In this document: piece by piece, positions 1 through 6,625 of the stretch
Position numbering within the stretch: the stretch's first letter is position 1
How the letters are laid out: each line of letters opens with the position of its first letter
NCBI GenBank assembly: GCA_028871595.1
Contig: JAGWMT010000178.1
Location: forward strand, 1 to 6,625
Origin: Elusimicrobiota bacterium
GTDB lineage: Bacteria > Elusimicrobiota > Elusimicrobia > UBA1565 > UBA9628
Length of the DNA: 6,625 nucleotides
Direction of reading: 5' to 3'
The notes under the pieces: generated by a model
Told to the model about the DNA's origin: nothing
Seen by the model: only the letters and a program-made list of their open reading frames with translations
Databases searched by the model: none
Program-made: the position numbers and the translations under genes

Positions 1-1
1 G

Positions 2-145
2 AAGAAGCACTGGCAGGTCGAGATCAAGCGCATGCTGACCAGCGGCCTCAAGTTCGAGCTCGACGCGCTGGCCAACAAGGACTTCCAGTACCTGACCAAG
101 CAGTACCTGCCGCGCAAGCTCAAGGACAAGGACTGGCTGGACTGA
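2..145 (+). CDS. top6A: DNA topoisomerase VI subunit A (Spo11/Top6A-like), C-terminal fragment
   Basis: This is a 47-residue C-terminal piece, open at the left window edge and ending in TGA at 143-145. It starts with a KKHWQVEIKRML helix. It continues through a segment like the end of Topo VI A / Spo11 family proteins: an ALANKDFQYLT stretch, then a QYLPRKL motif and a short charged tail ending KDKDWLD. In the family, this end follows the Toprim domain and packs into the A-subunit dimer. The catalytic Tyr and the Toprim acidic residues would lie outside the window. The full enzyme is an A2B2 type IIB topoisomerase that passes one duplex through another using ATP. The B subunit gene is expected next to it but cannot be seen. 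The assignment rests on recognising the ALxxKxFxxLxxxYLPxKL pattern over a short stretch, so moderate confidence is appropriate. Confidence 0.72.
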   Translation, partial: KKHWQVEIKRMLTSGLKFELDALANKDFQYLTKQYLPRKLKDKDWLD

Positions 146-222: not shown

Positions 223-852
223 ATGACCGCGCTGATGCGGGATCCGGACTGGACGTCCGCGTCCCCCGCCGGAACCTTCGCCACCTTCAGCCGGGCGGGC
301 GCCGCTCCGAATCCGGCGTTCGCGAAAGTCTTCAAGGCGCGTGCGGCGCCGACCCGGGAGGTCATGCAGGCCGTCGCGGCGAACATGGGCGTCCCGCTGA
401 AGACGATGCCCAAGGGCGTGCGCCTGGCCGGCCGCAATTCACTGGGCCGCGACATTGAGGCGGGCGGCGTGCTCCCGAACCCCGGCAAGGCCCTGGACGA
501 CGGGACCATCACCGGGACGGGCGCGCATCTGCTCCGCGACGGCTCCCCGCACATGGTGTCGGTGGCCGACCGCCTCACCGGCGGCGCGGTCCTCTTGATG
601 ACCGGCTATGCCGACGCGCACCGCGTGAAGAAGACGCTGTCGGGCGTCATGTACGAGTTCGAGCAGGTGGCCGACGCCGCGAGGATTCCCCCCACGCGCG
701 AGGTGTTCACCGACGTGCTCACCCAGGGCGAGACCGTCGTTCCCCAGGCGGAAGGCGCCGACATGATCCTGGCGGAACTGGACGCCATGCCGCACAACGG
801 GACCATGCGCGTCGAAATTTCTTCCGAGGCCGACGTCCACATCCGGCGCTGA
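223..852 (+). CDS. Conserved-looking hypothetical protein, 209 aa
   Basis: I do not recognise this family. Codons strongly favour G or C in the third position across the whole frame, supporting real coding, whereas the antisense reading gives Arg/Gly-rich shadow protein. There is no signal peptide or membrane segment; it looks like a soluble cytoplasmic alpha/beta protein with a hydrophobic stretch near residues 121-130 (GGAVLLMTGY). The start is uncertain. ATG 223 has no well-spaced ribosome binding site: the nearest AGGAG is at 203-207, about 15 nt upstream. The frame stays open back to about 160 with plausible helical coding (TLAQEQARAR), but contains no ATG, GTG or TTG there, so the N-terminus may be eroded. 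The last codons (EADVHIRR, TGA) lie in repeat R1 and recur at 2748-2774 as ENGVHIRR with TAA. It reads away from the Topo VI tail in the same direction and converges on the glycosyltransferase remnant. Confidence 0.7.
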   Translation: MTALMRDPDWTSASPAGTFATFSRAGAAPNPAFAKVFKARAAPTREVMQAVAANMGVPLKTMPKGVRLAGRNSLGRDIEAGGVLPNPGKALDDGTITGTGAHLLRDGSPHMVSVADRLTGGAVLLMTGYADAHRVKKTLSGVMYEFEQVADAARIPPTREVFTDVLTQGETVVPQAEGADMILAELDAMPHNGTMRVEISSEADVHIRR

Positions 853-919
853 GTCTCTATCCGCGTCAAGAAAAGCCGTGGGCGAATGATCGGAAATACC
901 ATTCGTCGTCGTGACGACG
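826..919 (+). repeat. Direct repeat R1, copy 1 (partner 2748-2841)
   Basis: These 94 bp align without gaps to 2748-2841 at an offset of 1922, with 14 mismatches (about 85% identity). The repeat spans the last codons and stop of the 223-852 gene, a 13-bp gap, and the terminal codons of a minus-strand glycosyltransferase. It is therefore a duplicated convergent gene junction and does not look like a mobile element end. No inverted terminal repeats were seen. Confidence 0.9.
866..919 (-). pseudogene. Glycosyltransferase family 2 remnant, last ~17 codons only
   Basis: On the minus strand this encodes RRHDDEWYFRSF followed by AHGFS and TGA (866-868). That is nearly identical to the end of the larger decayed glycosyltransferase at 2788-3303 (THGFS). 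Related enzymes often finish in an Arg-rich helix then D-D/E-W-F/Y-F. No coding similarity to the family extends right of about 919; the sequence passes directly into R3 and then the promoter of the next gene. The rest of the gene has been lost here. Assignment depends on comparison with the longer copy. Confidence 0.65.
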
Positions 920-940
920 GGGGGATAAATCAAGGGAGAC
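913..940 (-). repeat. Direct repeat R3, copy 1 (partner 4604-4629), orphan promoter segment
   Basis: The sequence GACGACGGG, a variable spot, then AATCAAGGG and GAC occurs here and at 4604-4629, with a 2-bp length difference. At the partner site it contains the -35 (TTGATT on the minus strand) of the metalloprotease promoter. The same hexamer survives here at 928-933, but no -10 or gene follows it, only the 17-codon glycosyltransferase remnant. It therefore looks like a stranded promoter left by a deletion. Confidence 0.6.
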
Positions 941-948
941 AGCCGTCC

Positions 949-977
949 TTGACAGAGCGCGCCGGCGGGGGCATACT
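949..977 (+). promoter_or_regulatory. Sigma70-type promoter for the 988-2508 gene
   Basis: A perfect -35 TTGACA (949-954) is followed by exactly 17 bp and a -10 CATACT (972-977), which matches TATAAT at four of six positions. Transcription would begin near 983-985, only a few bases before ATG 988, leaving no room for a ribosome binding site. It lies just right of the R1/R3 fusion, so the downstream gene carries its own promoter. Confidence 0.75.
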
Positions 978-987
978 TCGGAATACC

Positions 988-2508
988 ATGAACCCGTCCA
1001 TCTTGGCCGCCGTTTTCCTGATTTACGCGGCATCGTCTTGGTCCGAGACCACTCCGTTGGATCAGGCGCGCGCGTCCTACCTCGCTCATGAAGTCGGCCA
1101 GCGGACTCTCGACGAGTCATTTCTGCCGTCGGACGCGCGGGCCTCCGGCGAATTTCTGTCCGCCCTCGCGGCGGCGCGCGACGTGCAGATCGGCTGCGCC
1201 CGGCCATGCGCCGCGCCCGCCGAGGTCGAGATTTACCGAGAGAAAGTCCGGCTGGCGGCGATCAAACTCGGCTTCTCCGGCTCGGACCTCGTCAAGATCG
1301 ACCAGCACTACCTGCCGAAGGGCAAGCCGCGCCTCCGGCAATCCGCGGACGACGGGAAGGACGCCGCGGCCCGCCGGCTTGAGGCGGAAGCCGTGCGGCG
1401 CCTGCTCGCCCAGCGAACCCTCTCCGCGCCGATGCGCGCCGCCATGACGCGGAAAGCTCAATCCCTCGCCGCCGCCCTCGGCAGAACGACCGAAATAGGA
1501 GCAGGCGGAGGAGGAGCCGCCGTCGCGCCGGGAGCCCGGGGCGCGCCGGCCGCTCGGACGCTCGCGGAGCTCAACGCGCTGCCCGACGCCCGCCTGCCGC
1601 TCTCGTTGGCGACGAGCGCCAAGGCCCCGCCCGCGCCCGGCCTGAGCCGGGAGGATCTTTCCGCCGCCGCGCGTTCCGCCTCGTCCGCGAACGGTCCCGC
1701 CGCCGCTGTCGAGAAGACCCCGTCCCGGCCGAGCGACGGCGCGCCTGCGCCGCGGGCGCGCAACCCCGCGCATCGGGAGCCGGACGGTTTTCAGGCCAAG
1801 GGGGCCTCAGCGAAAAATCGGTACCCACCGGTTCTCGGAGACACCAAGTGCCGGCTGATCTTCAACATGGTGCAAGACGAGAAGCGCTACGGGAACGTGC
1901 GCGCCGCGACGATGTGGAGCATCACCTTTCCCGGCGAAAAAAAAATGGGCAACCACTTCACCAATCCCGTTCCGTACGACAATCTCACGCCGACGGCCGC
2001 CGGAGACATCGACCTGGATTGGTATATGGACCTGACCGTCGGCGCGGGAGGCCTGCCGAATATCCCCGGCAAATCGCTCGCCGTCCAGGAACTATATTTG
2101 AACATGAAAGGCGCCTGGGAAGGCGTGACCGCGATCGGCTCGCTGTTCGGTCTCTACAAGGAGTCGAACGACGCGAAATATCATTTTGAAAAACCATACG
2201 ACGACCCGGGGGAGAATGTCGCGGTCGCGGCGGTGGGGAAGGGGCTAAAGATCGCCGACTTGTTTCCGGAGCCGTGGTTTCGGGCCAATTGCCTTTCTCT
2301 TTATTCGGTCAAGCAGTACGTAGACCGGCGCCGCAAAGAGGAGAGAGTCCGCGCGTTGCTGAACGGCCGCCCCCCCATGAGCGCCGAGGCCATCGCGAGG
2401 ACCTTGGGGCTGAGCGCTGGCACCGTGCGCGAGTTGATCGACGACATGGACGGCAAAGAGCTGCAGGCATCGGGACAGCCCGCGAGCGACGCGATCAAAA
2501 ACCGGTGA
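988..2508 (+). CDS. Secreted-looking protein with Ala/Pro-rich linker and C-terminal HTH-like segment, 506 aa
   Basis: I do not recognise this family. ATG 988 was preferred over ATG 886 because it gives a good signal peptide (MNPSILAAVFLIYAASSWS) and sits just after a strong promoter; the earlier start runs through the promoter and the repeat. Residues 20-165 are mostly helical and charged, with a CARPC pair at 70-74. Residues 170-270 are Ala/Pro/Gly-rich and probably a disordered linker. Residues 278-440 look globular, with aromatic motifs such as DLDWYMDLTV (342-351) and DLFPEPWFRANC (424-435). Residues 464-487 (MSAEAIARTLGLSAGTVREL and on) resemble a DNA-binding helix-turn-helix, odd for an exported protein. 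A run of nine A at 1937-1945 encodes the E-K-K stretch near residue 318. The gene fills the interval between R3 and the speA-tail fragment and probably arrived as an insertion. No enzymatic motif was seen. Confidence 0.75.
   Translation: MNPSILAAVFLIYAASSWSETTPLDQARASYLAHEVGQRTLDESFLPSDARASGEFLSALAAARDVQIGCARPCAAPAEVEIYREKVRLAAIKLGFSGSDLVKIDQHYLPKGKPRLRQSADDGKDAAARRLEAEAVRRLLAQRTLSAPMRAAMTRKAQSLAAALGRTTEIGAGGGGAAVAPGARGAPAARTLAELNALPDARLPLSLATSAKAPPAPGLSREDLSAAARSASSANGPAAAVEKTPSRPSDGAPAPRARNPAHREPDGFQAKGASAKNRYPPVLGDTKCRLIFNMVQDEKRYGNVRAATMWSITFPGEKKMGNHFTNPVPYDNLTPTAAGDIDLDWYMDLTVGAGGLPNIPGKSLAVQELYLNMKGAWEGVTAIGSLFGLYKESNDAKYHFEKPYDDPGENVAVAAVGKGLKIADLFPEPWFRANCLSLYSVKQYVDRRRKEERVRALLNGRPPMSAEAIARTLGLSAGTVRELIDDMDGKELQASGQPASDAIKNR
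1937..1945 (+). other. Nine-adenine homopolymer inside the 988-2508 gene
   Basis: The codons read GGC GAA AAA AAA ATG. It is a notably long A run for GC-rich coding DNA. A one-base slip to the -1 frame would change the C-terminal third and stop at 2187-2189, removing the HTH-like segment. It could be a slippage or phase-variation site, or simply a chance Lys-Lys pair. Confidence 0.5.
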
Positions 2509-2522
2509 AGCGCCACGCGCGC

Positions 2523-2547
2523 GGGCGCCGGCTTCGAGTTCCGGCCC
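2523..2547 (+). terminator. Possible hairpin after the 988-2508 gene
   Basis: GGG plus CCGG (2523-2531, with a two-base bulge) can pair with CCGG plus CCC (2541-2547) around a 9-base loop, 15 bp after the stop. There is no T run after it, so an intrinsic terminator is not demonstrated. It lies between convergent readings, where such a hairpin is common. Confidence 0.25.
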
Positions 2548-2557
2548 TGAAGAGCGA

Positions 2558-2702
2558 TTAGGCGACCGTTTCGGTGGGCTTGGCGGCCGGCGCGTGGCCG
2601 TTCGTACCGGCGGGGACCGCGTCGGACGCGCGGCGCTTGGGCGTGTTCTCGTCCACCCCGGGCAGATGGTCCACGTAGGTGTACTCGGTGAGGACCGCCT
2701 CG
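2558..2702 (-). pseudogene. speA: Detached 3' end of speA (repeat R2, copy 1; partner 4671-4815)
   Basis: The minus strand encodes the last 47 residues of arginine decarboxylase plus the stop: EAVLTEYTYVDHLPGVDENT, then a Pro/Ala-rich tail ending KPTETVA. It aligns gap-free to 4671-4815 at an offset of 2113. All 12 mismatches fall in the 63 bp at the gene's 3' end, while the 82 bp at 2621-2702 are identical. Most mismatches are synonymous; replacements are limited to Ala/Val, Thr/Ala and Gly/Ala changes in the tail. The piece lacks every catalytic region. An upstream ATG on the minus strand (2762-2764) would add 20 unrelated residues and give a 68-aa frame, which I regard as accidental. It marks one breakpoint of the proposed tandem duplication. 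Confidence 0.9.
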
Positions 2703-2747
2703 CCTGAAGGGCCGAAAGAGCCCAGCGAAAGGCCGAAAGCCCCCCTA
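2703..2747. other. Junction filler between the two duplicated units
   Basis: These 45 bp separate the truncated speA tail from R1 copy 2 and match neither parent. They contain two near-repeats of GGCCGAAAG (from 2710 and from 2731). The first is part of GGGCCGAAAGAGCCC (2709-2723), which can form a 4-bp stem. This resembles filler DNA at an old rearrangement breakpoint. Confidence 0.5.
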
Positions 2748-2841
2748 GAGAACGGCGTCCACATCCGGCGTTAAGTCTTTATCGGGGTCAAGAAAAACCG
2801 TGGGTAAATGATCGGAAATACCATTCGTCATCGTGCCGCCG
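2748..2841 (+). repeat. Direct repeat R1, copy 2 (partner 826-919)
   Basis: It begins with the last codons of the 223-852 gene (ENGVHIRR and a TAA stop at 2772-2774) but has none of that gene's body upstream. It runs through the stop codon of the glycosyltransferase (2788-2790). Unlike copy 1, the glycosyltransferase similarity continues to the right, to about 3303. Confidence 0.9.
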
Positions 2842-3303
2842 AAGCGCTGAAAGTTCTCGACGGCGGACTTCGAAATCGCCCGCCGCCAACTGCGCCAAGG
2901 CCGCGGGAAACTCGGTGTGACGACGGAAGGCATCGATGACCCGCTCGGCTCGATGCGGGGAAAAATGAACGAAGGCCACGCGCAGGGCGTTGTGAATGAC
3001 ACCTCAGGGACGACCAGAAGGCGATAGCCCAACAGGTTGAACCGTATGCTCATCTCGATGTCGGACATGCCCCAGGTGCTCATCCCCGGGTCGAACCCGC
3101 CGGTACGGACAAACGTATCCTTCCGCATTGCGAGGAAGCAGCCGGGGACGATTGGCACGCGGTACGGATCCACCCGCGGCGAGGAAGCCATTCAGTGGAA
3201 AGGTCCGCCGCCTTCAATCGCAGACCATATCCCTTCACCTTTGAATCGCCCATTACCGACACGCACGGAGCGACGGCGCCGACGCCCGATATAACAGGAG
3301 TCC
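2788..3303 (-). pseudogene. Glycosyltransferase family 2 pseudogene (C-terminal half, frameshifted)
   Basis: Three minus-strand pieces in different frames join into one family 2 (GalNAc-transferase-like) C-terminal half. The first (about 3303-3180) includes GYGLRLKAADLSTEWLPRRG. The second (about 3180-3000) includes VDPYRVPIVPGCFLAMRKDT, GGFDPGMSTWGMSDIEMSIR and LLGYRLLVVPEV; the G-G-F-D and W-G-x-x-D-x-E motifs are typical of the acceptor and divalent-metal side of these enzymes. The third (about 3000-2788) begins VIHNALRVAFVHFSP and ends EWYFRSF with a stop. The first joint is a small frameshift near 3170-3182. At the second, near 2995-3003, PEV passes directly into VIHNALR, so roughly 17-20 residues that normally carry an H-x-F-R-x-x-x-P-Y element appear deleted. 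The N-terminal half with the DXD motif is missing and the metalloprotease gene begins where it should continue. This is a dead gene. Confidence 0.75.
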
Positions 3304-3332
3304 CGTTACGACGCAATTCGCGACCAGTGCTA

Positions 3333-4577
3333 TCAGTGCACAAGCCCGCTCGCGCGCAGAATTACGAAAACGCGTGCGAAATGCTCCGGAAGAACGCGAC
3401 CGCCTGGAGAGCTCATGATGCTCGCCGGAAGCTCAACGACGGAAATGCTCCGATCCGCGGAATCGTAACTTTCGACGTAGTCGTCTTCCAGCCCCAGTAA
3501 ATGTCCGAACTCGTGGGCAGGAGCTGAATGTCCGAATCCGCGCCCAAGAACCAGCTTGCCGCCCCCCGCGTGCGTGACCGAGTCTCCGCCGTCGATCAAA
3601 CGAAGCGCGTCTGATGGGAATTCACCGCCCGGCGCCAATGGAACGAATTCGACGCTCGTCCGCCAGCCGGCTCGACGGCCATCAAGAGTCCATTCACCCC
3701 GCCAGGCGGACTCGATCGAACTCTTGACCTCCGCGAGGACCGCGGGGTCGCGAATGTCGGTCGCGAACCGCGCCGTCAAAACGAAAACGCCTGCCTCCGA
3801 CCGTAACCGGATACCCCCATGAGTCGAGACTTCTTCAGAGCGATGTGGCCGCTGGTCGACGAACGAGCGGCGCAGGGCATACCCGGAGAAGCGCTCCAAC
3901 ATCTTCCGCCAATAAACCCGGCGTGATTCAAGCCTGGCGCCCAGAGCGCGCGCAGCATCCGGGCGATTGCTCGCCTCGGCCTTATCAAACTCCGCGCCTG
4001 CCTCGTCGATTTCAGTCCCGAGGCCCGCCAAGGTCGTCCGGTTTGAGAGGAGGGGACGGACGGATTCCGGGAGACGAGGCGACGCCACGGCACGCCGTTG
4101 AGCGGCCGTCCCAACGTCAATGGCCCGAAAGCGAGATTCAAGAACAGATCGCTTCTGCTCGACGCGACGAACATCATCCATCTCCCGCAAGAATGATCCG
4201 TCCGTCAAACGCGCCCGGGTGTCCTCGGCCATTTTGCGCTCAGTAACGGGCAATCGACCGTCAGTCGACATCGAGGACAGAAACGCGGCGTAGTCCACGG
4301 AGAATCGTTCTATGAATTCCGGACGCTTGAACTGCGTGGAATGGTCGGATTCGATCCGCGCAAGACTATCGTACATCGAATACAGCATGGGCTCTGTGAG
4401 TTCGGGTCGATTCTCCAAACGACTCAGGGCCGTTTTGCCTTCTCCTTGGACAATCATCGACAGCTCGGCGCCGAAAAAAAGGCCTTGCGTGACGGATCGC
4501 GAGTATTCTCCTCCGGCTATCGCGTATGTCGGCAGGAACGTCAGGAGCGACAATAGCCCGCGGCCCAGAATTCCCAT
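3333..4577 (-). CDS. Secreted metzincin-like zinc metalloprotease, 414 aa
   Basis: A signal peptide covers residues 1-22 (LLSLLTFLPTYAIAGG core). Residues 40-240 form a long, charged, helix-rich region that may be a propeptide or inhibitory domain. The catalytic domain follows from about 262: a strand/helix fold, then HEFGHLLGLEDDY at 355-367. This is the zinc motif HExxHxxGxxD with H355, E356, H359, G362 and D365, so the third ligand is probably Asp, as in snapalysin-type enzymes. SIMSS (386-390) supplies a plausible Met-turn. The predicted role is an exported, zinc-dependent endopeptidase; the substrate is unknown. The ATG at 4575-4577 is preceded by GGGGGGA and a promoter. Third codon positions are less strictly G/C than in speA, suggesting a different origin. 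It ends 30 bp before the recognisable glycosyltransferase remnant on the same strand. Confidence 0.82.
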   Translation of the reverse strand: MGILGRGLLSLLTFLPTYAIAGGEYSRSVTQGLFFGAELSMIVQGEGKTALSRLENRPELTEPMLYSMYDSLARIESDHSTQFKRPEFIERFSVDYAAFLSSMSTDGRLPVTERKMAEDTRARLTDGSFLREMDDVRRVEQKRSVLESRFRAIDVGTAAQRRAVASPRLPESVRPLLSNRTTLAGLGTEIDEAGAEFDKAEASNRPDAARALGARLESRRVYWRKMLERFSGYALRRSFVDQRPHRSEEVSTHGGIRLRSEAGVFVLTARFATDIRDPAVLAEVKSSIESAWRGEWTLDGRRAGWRTSVEFVPLAPGGEFPSDALRLIDGGDSVTHAGGGKLVLGRGFGHSAPAHEFGHLLGLEDDYVESYDSADRSISVVELPASIMSSPGGRVLPEHFARVFVILRASGLVH

Positions 4578-4581
4578 GACT

Positions 4582-4588
4582 TCCCCCC
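4582..4588 (-). promoter_or_regulatory. Ribosome binding site of the metalloprotease gene
   Basis: On the minus strand GGGGGGA ends four bases before the ATG at 4577. It is purine-rich and close, and it fixes this ATG as the start that also yields the signal peptide. Confidence 0.6.
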
Positions 4589-4594
4589 GCTAGG

Positions 4595-4622
4595 AGTGTA
4601 ACCGACGACGGGTATTAATCAA
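4595..4622 (-). promoter_or_regulatory. Promoter of the metalloprotease gene
   Basis: On the minus strand a -35 TTGATT (4622-4617), a 16-bp spacer and a -10 TACACT (4600-4595) precede the gene. The transcript would begin near 4588, giving a leader of only about 11 nt that holds the ribosome binding site. The -35 lies inside R3. Confidence 0.55.
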
Positions 4623-4629
4623 GGGGGAC
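4604..4629 (-). repeat. Direct repeat R3, copy 2 (partner 913-940)
   Basis: This is the same GACGACGGG ... AATCAAGGG ... GAC segment as at 913-940, here in the speA to metalloprotease intergenic region. It is a short, gapped match and would be weak alone. Its position fits the order predicted by R1 and R2. Confidence 0.6.
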
Positions 4630-4659
4630 GATGACGGACGGACTTTTTAGATCCCCCCC
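4623..4659 (-). terminator. speA: Possible speA terminator hairpin
   Basis: About 12 bp after the speA stop, a run of seven G on the minus strand (4659-4653) can pair with five C (4627-4623) across a long loop of about 25 bases. TTGATTAAT follows, only mildly T-rich. The arm overlaps the start of the metalloprotease promoter. The stem is simple and the loop long, so this is a weak call. Confidence 0.3.
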
Positions 4660-4670
4660 GAGCGAGCTTA

Positions 4671-4815
4671 TTAAGCGACGGTCTCGGTCGGCTTGACGGC
4701 CGGCGCGTGGCCGTTGGCCGCCGCCGGGACGGCGTCGGACGCGCGGCGCTTGGGCGTGTTCTCGTCCACCCCGGGCAGATGGTCCACGTAGGTGTACTCG
4801 GTGAGGACCGCCTCG
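4671..4815 (-). repeat. speA: Direct repeat R2, copy 2 (3' end of intact speA; partner 2558-2702)
   Basis: These are the last 47 codons and stop of the long speA gene, duplicated at 2558-2702. The right boundary of the match (4815) is inside the coding sequence, and the reading continues here as VDRY while the fragment passes into junction filler. Confidence 0.9.
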
Positions 4816-6625
4816 TAGCGGTCCACCAGCTCGGCGGCCTCGCGCGGCTTGAGGGCGCCGGCCTTCGCCTGCGCGTCGGCGGCTTCCTTGACCATCTTCA
4901 CCAGGTCGTAATGCGAGTACTGGATCTCCTCCAGCACGTCGCGGATGTTCTGGCCTTTGATGGTCTCCTCGATGTAGTAGCCCTTGGGCTCGTCCTCGTC
5001 CTTGAAGACGTGGACCTCGTTGACGCGGCCGAACAGGTTGTGGATGTCGCCCATGGTGGCCTGGTAGGCGCCCATCAGGAAGAAGCCCAGGTAGTAGGGG
5101 CTGCCGTTGAGCGTGTGCACGGGCAAGGTGCCGCCCGCGTTGCGGTGGCAGGCGAACTGGGTGATCTTGCCGTCGGAGTCGCAGGTGATGTCCACCAGGC
5201 TGGCGCGGCGCACCGGCTCCTCGGTCAGGCGGTGCAGCGGCATGATGGGGAACAGCTGGCCGATGGCCCAGGAGTCGGGCAAGGACTGGAACAGCGAGAA
5301 GTTGCACAGGTACTGGTCGTACAGCGCCTTCTGCATCTCCAAAAGGTCCTCGGAGACGAACTTGGCTTTCGGCAGGAGCTTGCCGATCTCCAGGCACAGC
5401 TTCCAGTACAGGTGCTCGACCTTGGCCTTGTCCTCCAGGCCCAGGTAGCCCAGCTTGAACAGGGAGAAGGACTCCTCCAGATGCTGCTGGCCGTCGTGGA
5501 AGCTTTCCGCGATGTTCTTGGGCGACAGCGCCTTGAGCGATTCGCGCAGCTCGCGCACCACCTGGTGCTCGTCGGCGGTCTGCGGGAGCTCCACCGGCGA
5601 GGAGCCGGTCTCGATCGCGCCGAACACGTTGACCACCAGCAGCGCGTGGTGGGCCACCATGGAGCGGCCCGACTCGGTCACCAGGTTGGGCTCGGGGACC
5701 TTTTCCTGCTTGCAGACCTCCTGGACGGAGTACACCACGTCGGCCACGTACTCGCGCAGGTTGTAGTTCATGGAACTGTCCACCGCGGTGTGCGTGCCGT
5801 CGTAGTCCACGCCCAGCCCGCCGCCGCAGTCCAGGTACTCCACGCCCAGGCCCATCTTGCGCAGCTTCGCGTAGTAGCGCGCGCCTTCCTTGACCGCGTC
5901 CTTGAGCGTGCGGATGTCGCAGACCTGCGAGCCGATGTGGAAATGGACCAGCTTCAAGCAGTCGGACAAGCCCTCGGCCTTCAGCGCCTCCACGACGCCC
6001 AGGATCTCGGGGGTGGTGAGGCCGAACTTGGCGAAATGGCCGCTGGATGAGCGCCACTTGCCCACGCCCTGCGTCTGCAGCTTCACGCGCAGGCCAATCA
6101 TGGGCTTGACGCCCGCCTCGCGCGCGGCGGTGAGCAGGAGCTGGAGCTCGGAAAGCTTCTCGATGACGACCACGACCTTGCGGCCCAGCTTGAGGCCCAG
6201 CACCGCCAGGCGCATCATGGACTCGTCCTTGTAGCCGTTGACGATGGTCAGCGCCTCGGAGGAGTTCATCGCCAGCACGGCGAGCAGCTCGCCCTTGGAG
6301 CCGGCCTCCAGCCCGTACTGGAAGGGGCGTCCCGCGTCGGTGATCTCCTCGACGACCTCGCGCAGCTGGTTGACCTTGATGGGGTACACGCCGAAGTAGC
6401 GCCCGCCGTAGCCGTACTCCGAGATGGTGGCGGCGAACGCCTCGTTGATCAAGGTCACGCGCCGGCGCAGGATGTCCTGGAAGCGGATCAGCACGGGCAT
6501 CTTGATGCCCCGGGAGGCCACGTCCTCGACCACGTCCATCACGTCGATCGCGCCCTCGGCCTTCAGCGCCTCCACGACGCCCAGGATCTCGGGGGTGGTG
6601 AGGCCGAACTTGGCGAAATGGCCGC
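4671..6625 (-). CDS. speA: Biosynthetic arginine decarboxylase SpeA, open at the right edge
   Basis: This is a PLP-dependent fold III decarboxylase converting L-arginine to agmatine and CO2, the first step of the agmatine route to putrescine and spermidine. It is probably cytoplasmic. Numbering from the GTG at 6573-6575, it shows YPIKVNQ (64-70, K67 the PLP lysine), GLEAGSKGEL (88-97), HFHIGSQ (211-217), GGGLGVDYDG (251-260), VTESGR (299-304), NFSLFQSLPDSW (425-436), VDITCDSDG (461-469, with the substrate-contacting Cys-Asp) and LGFFLMGAYQATMGDIHNLF (496-515). A 35-residue Pro/Ala-rich tail follows, absent from E. coli SpeA. The N-terminus is abnormal. Family members have about 60 residues before the AIDVMDVVEDV segment, including a W-G-x-x-Y motif; here that segment is preceded in frame by a copy of internal residues 179-202. 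No true start is visible, so GTG 6575 should not be trusted. Confidence 0.93.
   Translation of the reverse strand, partial: GHFAKFGLTTPEILGVVEALKAEGAIDVMDVVEDVASRGIKMPVLIRFQDILRRRVTLINEAFAATISEYGYGGRYFGVYPIKVNQLREVVEEITDAGRPFQYGLEAGSKGELLAVLAMNSSEALTIVNGYKDESMMRLAVLGLKLGRKVVVVIEKLSELQLLLTAAREAGVKPMIGLRVKLQTQGVGKWRSSSGHFAKFGLTTPEILGVVEALKAEGLSDCLKLVHFHIGSQVCDIRTLKDAVKEGARYYAKLRKMGLGVEYLDCGGGLGVDYDGTHTAVDSSMNYNLREYVADVVYSVQEVCKQEKVPEPNLVTESGRSMVAHHALLVVNVFGAIETGSSPVELPQTADEHQVVRELRESLKALSPKNIAESFHDGQQHLEESFSLFKLGYLGLEDKAKVEHLYWKLCLEIGKLLPKAKFVSEDLLEMQKALYDQYLCNFSLFQSLPDSWAIGQLFPIMPLHRLTEEPVRRASLVDITCDSDGKITQFACHRNAGGTLPVHTLNGSPYYLGFFLMGAYQATMGDIHNLFGRVNEVHVFKDEDEPKGYYIEETIKGQNIRDVLEEIQYSHYDLVKMVKEAADAQAKAGALKPREAAELVDRYEAVLTEYTYVDHLPGVDENTPKRRASDAVPAAANGHAPAVKPTETVA
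5970..6043 (-). repeat. Exact direct repeat R4, internal copy in speA (partner 6552-6625)
   Basis: These 74 bp encode HFAKFGLTTPEILGVV and EALKAEG in their natural place, just before the conserved HFHIGSQ region. They are identical to the last 74 bp of the window at an offset of 582 bp, exactly 194 codons. Confidence 0.95.
6552..6625 (-). repeat. Exact direct repeat R4, copy at the right window edge
   Basis: This is identical to 5970-6043 and in frame with the downstream speA reading, but in the wrong place: it replaces the normal N-terminal codons. Because the window ends inside it, its true length is unknown. It is either the edge of an in-frame tandem duplication of 194 codons or an assembly loop at a sequence end. 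Confidence 0.95.

Follow-up and report, generated by a model that had tools for sequence, protein, structure and literature searches.

The window analysed here is the whole of contig JAGWMT010000178.1, 6,625 bp of DNA from an Elusimicrobiota bacterium. At its left lies the 3′ end of the gene for topoisomerase VI subunit A (top6A; 1–145, forward strand) and at its right lies speA, the gene for biosynthetic arginine decarboxylase (4671–6551, reverse strand; TIGR01273, 697.9 bits against a cut-off of 624.1), whose native 5′ end is outside the contig. The gap between these two genes appears to be a variable cargo site, of which the contig seems to carry two diverged versions end to end. In version A, a complete open reading frame (ORF) of 209 residues, p209 (223–852, forward), is followed by the tail of a GT2 glycosyltransferase gene, the ORF p540 (886–2508, forward) and the final 48 speA codons. 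Version B runs from the last 8 codons of p209 through a GT2 pseudogene (2788–3343, reverse) and MP, an ORF of 414 residues (3333–4577, reverse), to speA itself. An original prediction, made from the letters of this DNA without database searches, had read the arrangement as an old tandem duplication or, as a second option, as two alleles brought together. It had also described the anatomy: a copy of each gene on the outside, truncated tails on the inside and, at 2702–2748, a junction. This we find as described.

The two versions are linked by two repeats, R1 and R2, whose copies keep the same order and orientation, as had been predicted. R1 (826–919 and 2748–2841) is identical at 80 of 94 positions; its gap-free core (831–919 and 2753–2841) is identical at 77 of 89, and the pair has an E value of 3e-25 when the gap is compared with itself by blastn. 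R2 (2557–2702 and 4670–4815, both on the reverse strand) is identical at 134 of 146 positions. Its right copy lies within speA, and its left copy breaks 48 codons from the speA stop, again as predicted.

What is R1? It is the shared tail of two convergent genes, p209 on the forward strand and a GT2 glycosyltransferase gene on the other. In the left copy p209 is represented by its last 8 codons with their stop, and the glycosyltransferase, in antisense at 866–919, by its last 17 codons with theirs, all that is left of that gene in version A. The right copy, at the start of version B, holds the same two tails in the same orientations. The antisense strand encodes RRHDDEWYFRSF(A/T)HGFS followed by a stop, the C-terminus of a GT2 glycosyltransferase, and this tail aligns with the C-termini of all eight relatives aligned. 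In version B the gene survives as a pseudogene in three frames, lacking about 115–120 N-terminal residues and about 17 inner ones. We identified it by matching a composite translation to GT2 proteins: the three frame pieces together gave 44 protein matches, the window's own included, the best being P0003 (66% over 95%). A longer piece of the gene returned only itself in the protein search, and a scan of 235 genomes from the class gave only weak relatives, in 9 of them. The C-terminal piece was found in none of the 44 genomes of the family of L010, which form our family comparison set, in a search that had no positive control. The original prediction missed this gene end in R1. It had the units differing in cargo; since R1 is the end of a GT2 gene, both units once had such a gene and their origins are less different than they look.

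How did the copies of R1 diverge? Five of the six differences in the glycosyltransferase frame fall at codon position 3 (P 0.012), which says that most of that divergence would have arisen while the gene still worked. Among the 14 base changes in R1, two are C/G swaps, and in nine the right copy has A or T. Because its right copy is part of a dead gene, R1 serves as a rough control for R2, though the third-position bias in its glycosyltransferase frame tells against this use.

In R2, all 12 differences lie inside 58 bp (2561–2618) of the stretch 2557–2618, where divergence reaches 19%; it then ends abruptly, and the remaining 84 bp are identical (2619–2702 and 4732–4815; P 0.00027). Nine of the 12 differences are at codon position 3 (simulated P 0.002) and seven are C/G swaps. 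When the window's speA was compared with seven of its 15 close relatives, C/G swaps made up 49–56% and third positions 56–65% of the differences. The R2 differences thus resemble those between intact speA genes of different species. If the inner tail had arisen by a short duplication in place, the form given in the original prediction, neutral decay would be expected, since a fragment of 48 codons should lack function. Such drift is not what the left tail displays, small as the numbers are. The third-position bias, the C/G swaps and the abrupt stop at 2619 therefore weaken the tandem duplication, and the divergence spectrum and that same stop fit the prediction's second option. The two tails are also more alike than either is to the tails displayed for the 15 close relatives. 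Their common C-terminal sequence, unseen in those relatives, implies that the source lineages split fairly recently.

Could the whole locus, speA included, have been duplicated instead? This would account for the speA differences too, both copies having been long under selection. It would then cost several later steps: a deletion from the left speA into the right p209, differing losses of cargo, and gene conversion over the 84 bp. Order, orientation and truncated inner tails agree with duplication in either form. On the other hand, the units lack the common content that a duplication should leave. The unit-against-unit alignment that had been proposed, run with blastn between 920–2557 and 2842–4670, gave no match at E < 0.1, apart from a short candidate repeat, R3.

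R3 bears directly on the duplication. The original prediction had reported it as a third repeat placed differently within the units, and one candidate so placed does exist, the only one found: 913–940 and 4604–4629, alike in 23 of 26 columns with a gap of 2 nt. On the left it abuts R1; on the right it lies upstream of MP, 1.76 kb from R1. If real, it suggests that the left unit lost the body of the glycosyltransferase and MP genes, between the MP promoter region and the glycosyltransferase tail. When the two short regions alone are compared, none of 1000 shuffles does as well as R3. When gap is compared blindly with gap, 42 of 200 shuffles equal it (15 of 100 for a shortened version), so that R3 is weak, and we rejected it as proof of shared descent. 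Nor is it a common motif: the fetched loci, 736,250 bases in all, contain its 12-base core, in which 11 bases are specified, three times. No trace of the p540 flanks could be found at 4630–4673, where 577 and 760 of 1000 shuffles did as well. Taking its short and whole-locus forms together, we consider duplication in place quite unlikely.

At the junction itself, the speA tail ending at 2702 and the p209 tail beginning at 2748 are unrelated, and 45 bp of filler (2703–2747) stand between them. The joint thus lacks long homology. The filler is an imperfect 21-bp tandem repeat that masks the original ends at the joint. It has no likeness to the rest of the window beyond that of shuffles and no folding above shuffles, and Rfam gave no match.

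Does the same site vary in relatives? The left 145 bases share 82.8–90.3% DNA identity with the end of the same gene in L004, L010, L011, L028 and L030. The gene is top6A because its L010 orthologue (L010 13875–14969) matches PF21180, PF04406 and PF20768; an earlier assignment as a deoxyhypusine-synthase-like gene was rejected on those grounds. A literature search over a limited body of papers found none on topoisomerase VI in Elusimicrobia. The window's SpeA protein is 84–87% identical to that of 15 of the 38 loci found, mostly labelled Elusimicrobia, and 57–71% identical to the remaining 23. Within the family, the speA query matched 43 genomes, 38 of them strongly (E < 1e-20) and five weakly through related decarboxylases, and top6A is present in 23. 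Both genes occur on one contig in six genomes, and in all six they are convergent.

This interval, whose comparison among relatives had also been proposed, spans 1161, 1305, 1762, 1946, 2107 and 2818 bases in the six, against 4525 in the window, and its contents vary. Pfam assignments for six ORFs from four of the gaps give an M48 peptidase (L004), a response regulator (L011), a cupin and a chalcone-synthase-type enzyme (L028), and an outer-membrane barrel beside an ORF without assignment (L030). An ORF of about 190 residues adjoining top6A is common to four of the six gaps and a barrel-type ORF to those of G010 and L030; the site is therefore variable, but not entirely so. No ORF of the window's gap is shared with any of the six at E 1e-4, and the sole DNA match is 34 bases shared with G010, within p540.

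From the repeats, the gene identities, the syntenic site and the divergence pattern, all of them observed, we infer a transfer, its direction, its completion in a single step and a crossover on the left. DNA from a strain with version A would have entered a cell with version B. On its left the incoming DNA would have paired in or beyond top6A. Its right end, inside speA, would have been attached to the end of p209 in the recipient, with no homology between the two. This single event, a homology-facilitated illegitimate recombination, would delete the body of the resident p209 and leave the two truncated tails at 2557–2841. An earlier ordinary crossover in speA, or a gene conversion, would explain the switch to identity at 2618/2619. 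One-sided joining has the merit of explaining both truncated tails at once, since the donor DNA stops within speA and the body of p209 is lost from the resident.

We favour this one-sided joining of two diverged versions over the old tandem duplication, and put its chances at about even. R1 and R2 are gene tails exactly where such a joint predicts them, and the contents of the gap differ in all six family genomes with the convergent pair on one contig. Several points weigh on the other side. Among proteins, the 44 family genomes and viral contigs, neither a sibling with version A or version B alone nor a donor was found. Joints made by homology-facilitated illegitimate recombination usually show a microhomology of a few bases; here 45 bases of filler stand in place of a short overlap, which fits poorly. 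The 84 identical bp call for a second event. The counts are low, at 12 and 6 differences, and the choice of tests followed inspection of the data. Finally, the right end of the contig is probably chimeric, and the joint is known from assembled sequence alone.

This last point raises the question of an artefact. The last 74 bases (6552–6625) are an exact copy of 5970–6043 within speA, and they occupy the place where the native start of speA stands in relatives. The right-hand join is thus probably false, and at least one false join in the contig is likely. Might the joint at 2702/2748 be another? A chimeric read, or the assembler, could have fused whole or partial versions of the locus from two strains, and two strains would supply tails as diverged as these. 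But there is no identical sequence at 2702/2748 to lead an assembler into joining the copies, both flanks are ordered and oriented as in the six relatives, and a random chimera would seldom unite one locus with itself. The 84 identical bp beside 19% divergence are also odd for two separate strains. An assembly or library chimera seems to us unlikely.

What are the cargo genes? The relatives of p209 number only itself among 687 protein-search candidates, with none in the 44 family genomes (a search without positive control), none confirmed in viral contigs and no match in Pfam, NCBIfam or PHROG. Its GC content by codon position is 0.68/0.51/0.91. The p540 protein is probably exported, judging by eye from its N-terminus, and its start is likely at 988, likewise by eye. 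Relatives occur in 16 of the 44 family genomes, several per genome in some. Its N-terminal part recurs in longer proteins with differing C-terminal parts, and p540 looks modular in its sequence. A 164-residue relative of its C-terminal part, without the N-terminal part, stands beside top6A in the opposite orientation in genome G022 (L069 7851–8345); no speA was present within the 14.9 kb fetched there. A candidate p540 promoter at 949–977, the sole sigma-70-type match in the window, was rejected as no more than shuffles yield.

MP carries a metalloprotease-type HEFGH motif, with a weak match to PF05547 below the cut-off. Relatives occur in 11 of the 44 family genomes and in none of five genomes chosen individually, and all 10 relatives whose ends were displayed have the motif. 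A promoter for MP was read by eye and is absent from the sigma-70-type scan of the window. Among the family-genome matches for p540 and for MP, no contig carries both. Third-position GC falls from 0.97 in speA through 0.91 in p209 and 0.81 in p540 to 0.66 in MP, and the low value in MP suggests that MP arrived later or from farther away.

Since repeats flank the cargo, and the contents of the gap vary among relatives, R1 and R2 might be taken for the ends of a cargo-carrying mobile element. R1 is unlike R2, and both are ordinary gene tails. No recombinase or transposase was recognized among the seven ORFs in a Pfam scan, and no PHROG match was obtained for the three cargo proteins tested. R1 DNA, sought as a dispersed repeat without a positive control, is in none of the 44 family genomes. 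We regard such an element as extremely improbable.

Are there precedents for a one-sided joint of this kind? Homology-facilitated illegitimate recombination has been put forward as a hypothesis for the effector loci of type VI secretion systems, in an account that describes it as rare beside ordinary recombination (PMC5361080, excerpt). In the Vibrio cholerae effector–immunity arrays, as in our proposal, an anchor of homology on one side is combined with a non-homologous join on the other; the older version is retained in truncated form, and truncated 3′ gene ends mark the joint (PMC5361080, excerpt). There, however, the upstream part of the effector gene serves as the anchor, and many strains have the array (PMC5361080, excerpt), whereas we have one contig, an inferred anchor and unrelated cargo.

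The same process has been put forward, again as a hypothesis, for the loci of contact-dependent inhibition, where the orphan cdi remnants of Acinetobacter recall the present case in that remnants of displaced genes stand in a row beside those now in place; a further origin discussed for these orphans is tandem duplication (PMC6336857, excerpt). Those are toxin–immunity modules at cdiA (PMC6336857, excerpt), and ours is a gap between housekeeping genes. In transformation merodiploids of Streptococcus pneumoniae, two versions of one region come to lie in tandem after DNA uptake, as in our proposal. The duplications characterized there are of about 100–900 kb, arise between repeats and keep whole copies, unlike ours; mention is also made of one of 3,276 bp that has no flanking repeats (PMC3784515, excerpt).

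We suggest, as a tentative extension, that the top6A–speA gap in these Elusimicrobiota may be a site where exported modular proteins accrete without a recombinase, successive versions being stacked by one-sided illegitimate recombination and orphan tails recording past cargo. Such orphan tails would be like those of type VI secretion and contact-dependent inhibition arrays, though the cargo would differ and the lineage is an uncultured one. The comparison used for R2 is reusable: whether the tail of a gene, duplicated and dead, has changed in the manner of living genes is a question whose answer separates import from duplication in place. A joint that proved to be an artefact would illustrate how sequence from two strains can pass for a duplication. 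A real joint would record that genes have moved between diverged lineages, in a group known here from metagenome assemblies only, and would show a gap between housekeeping genes gathering cargo without the enzymes of mobile elements.

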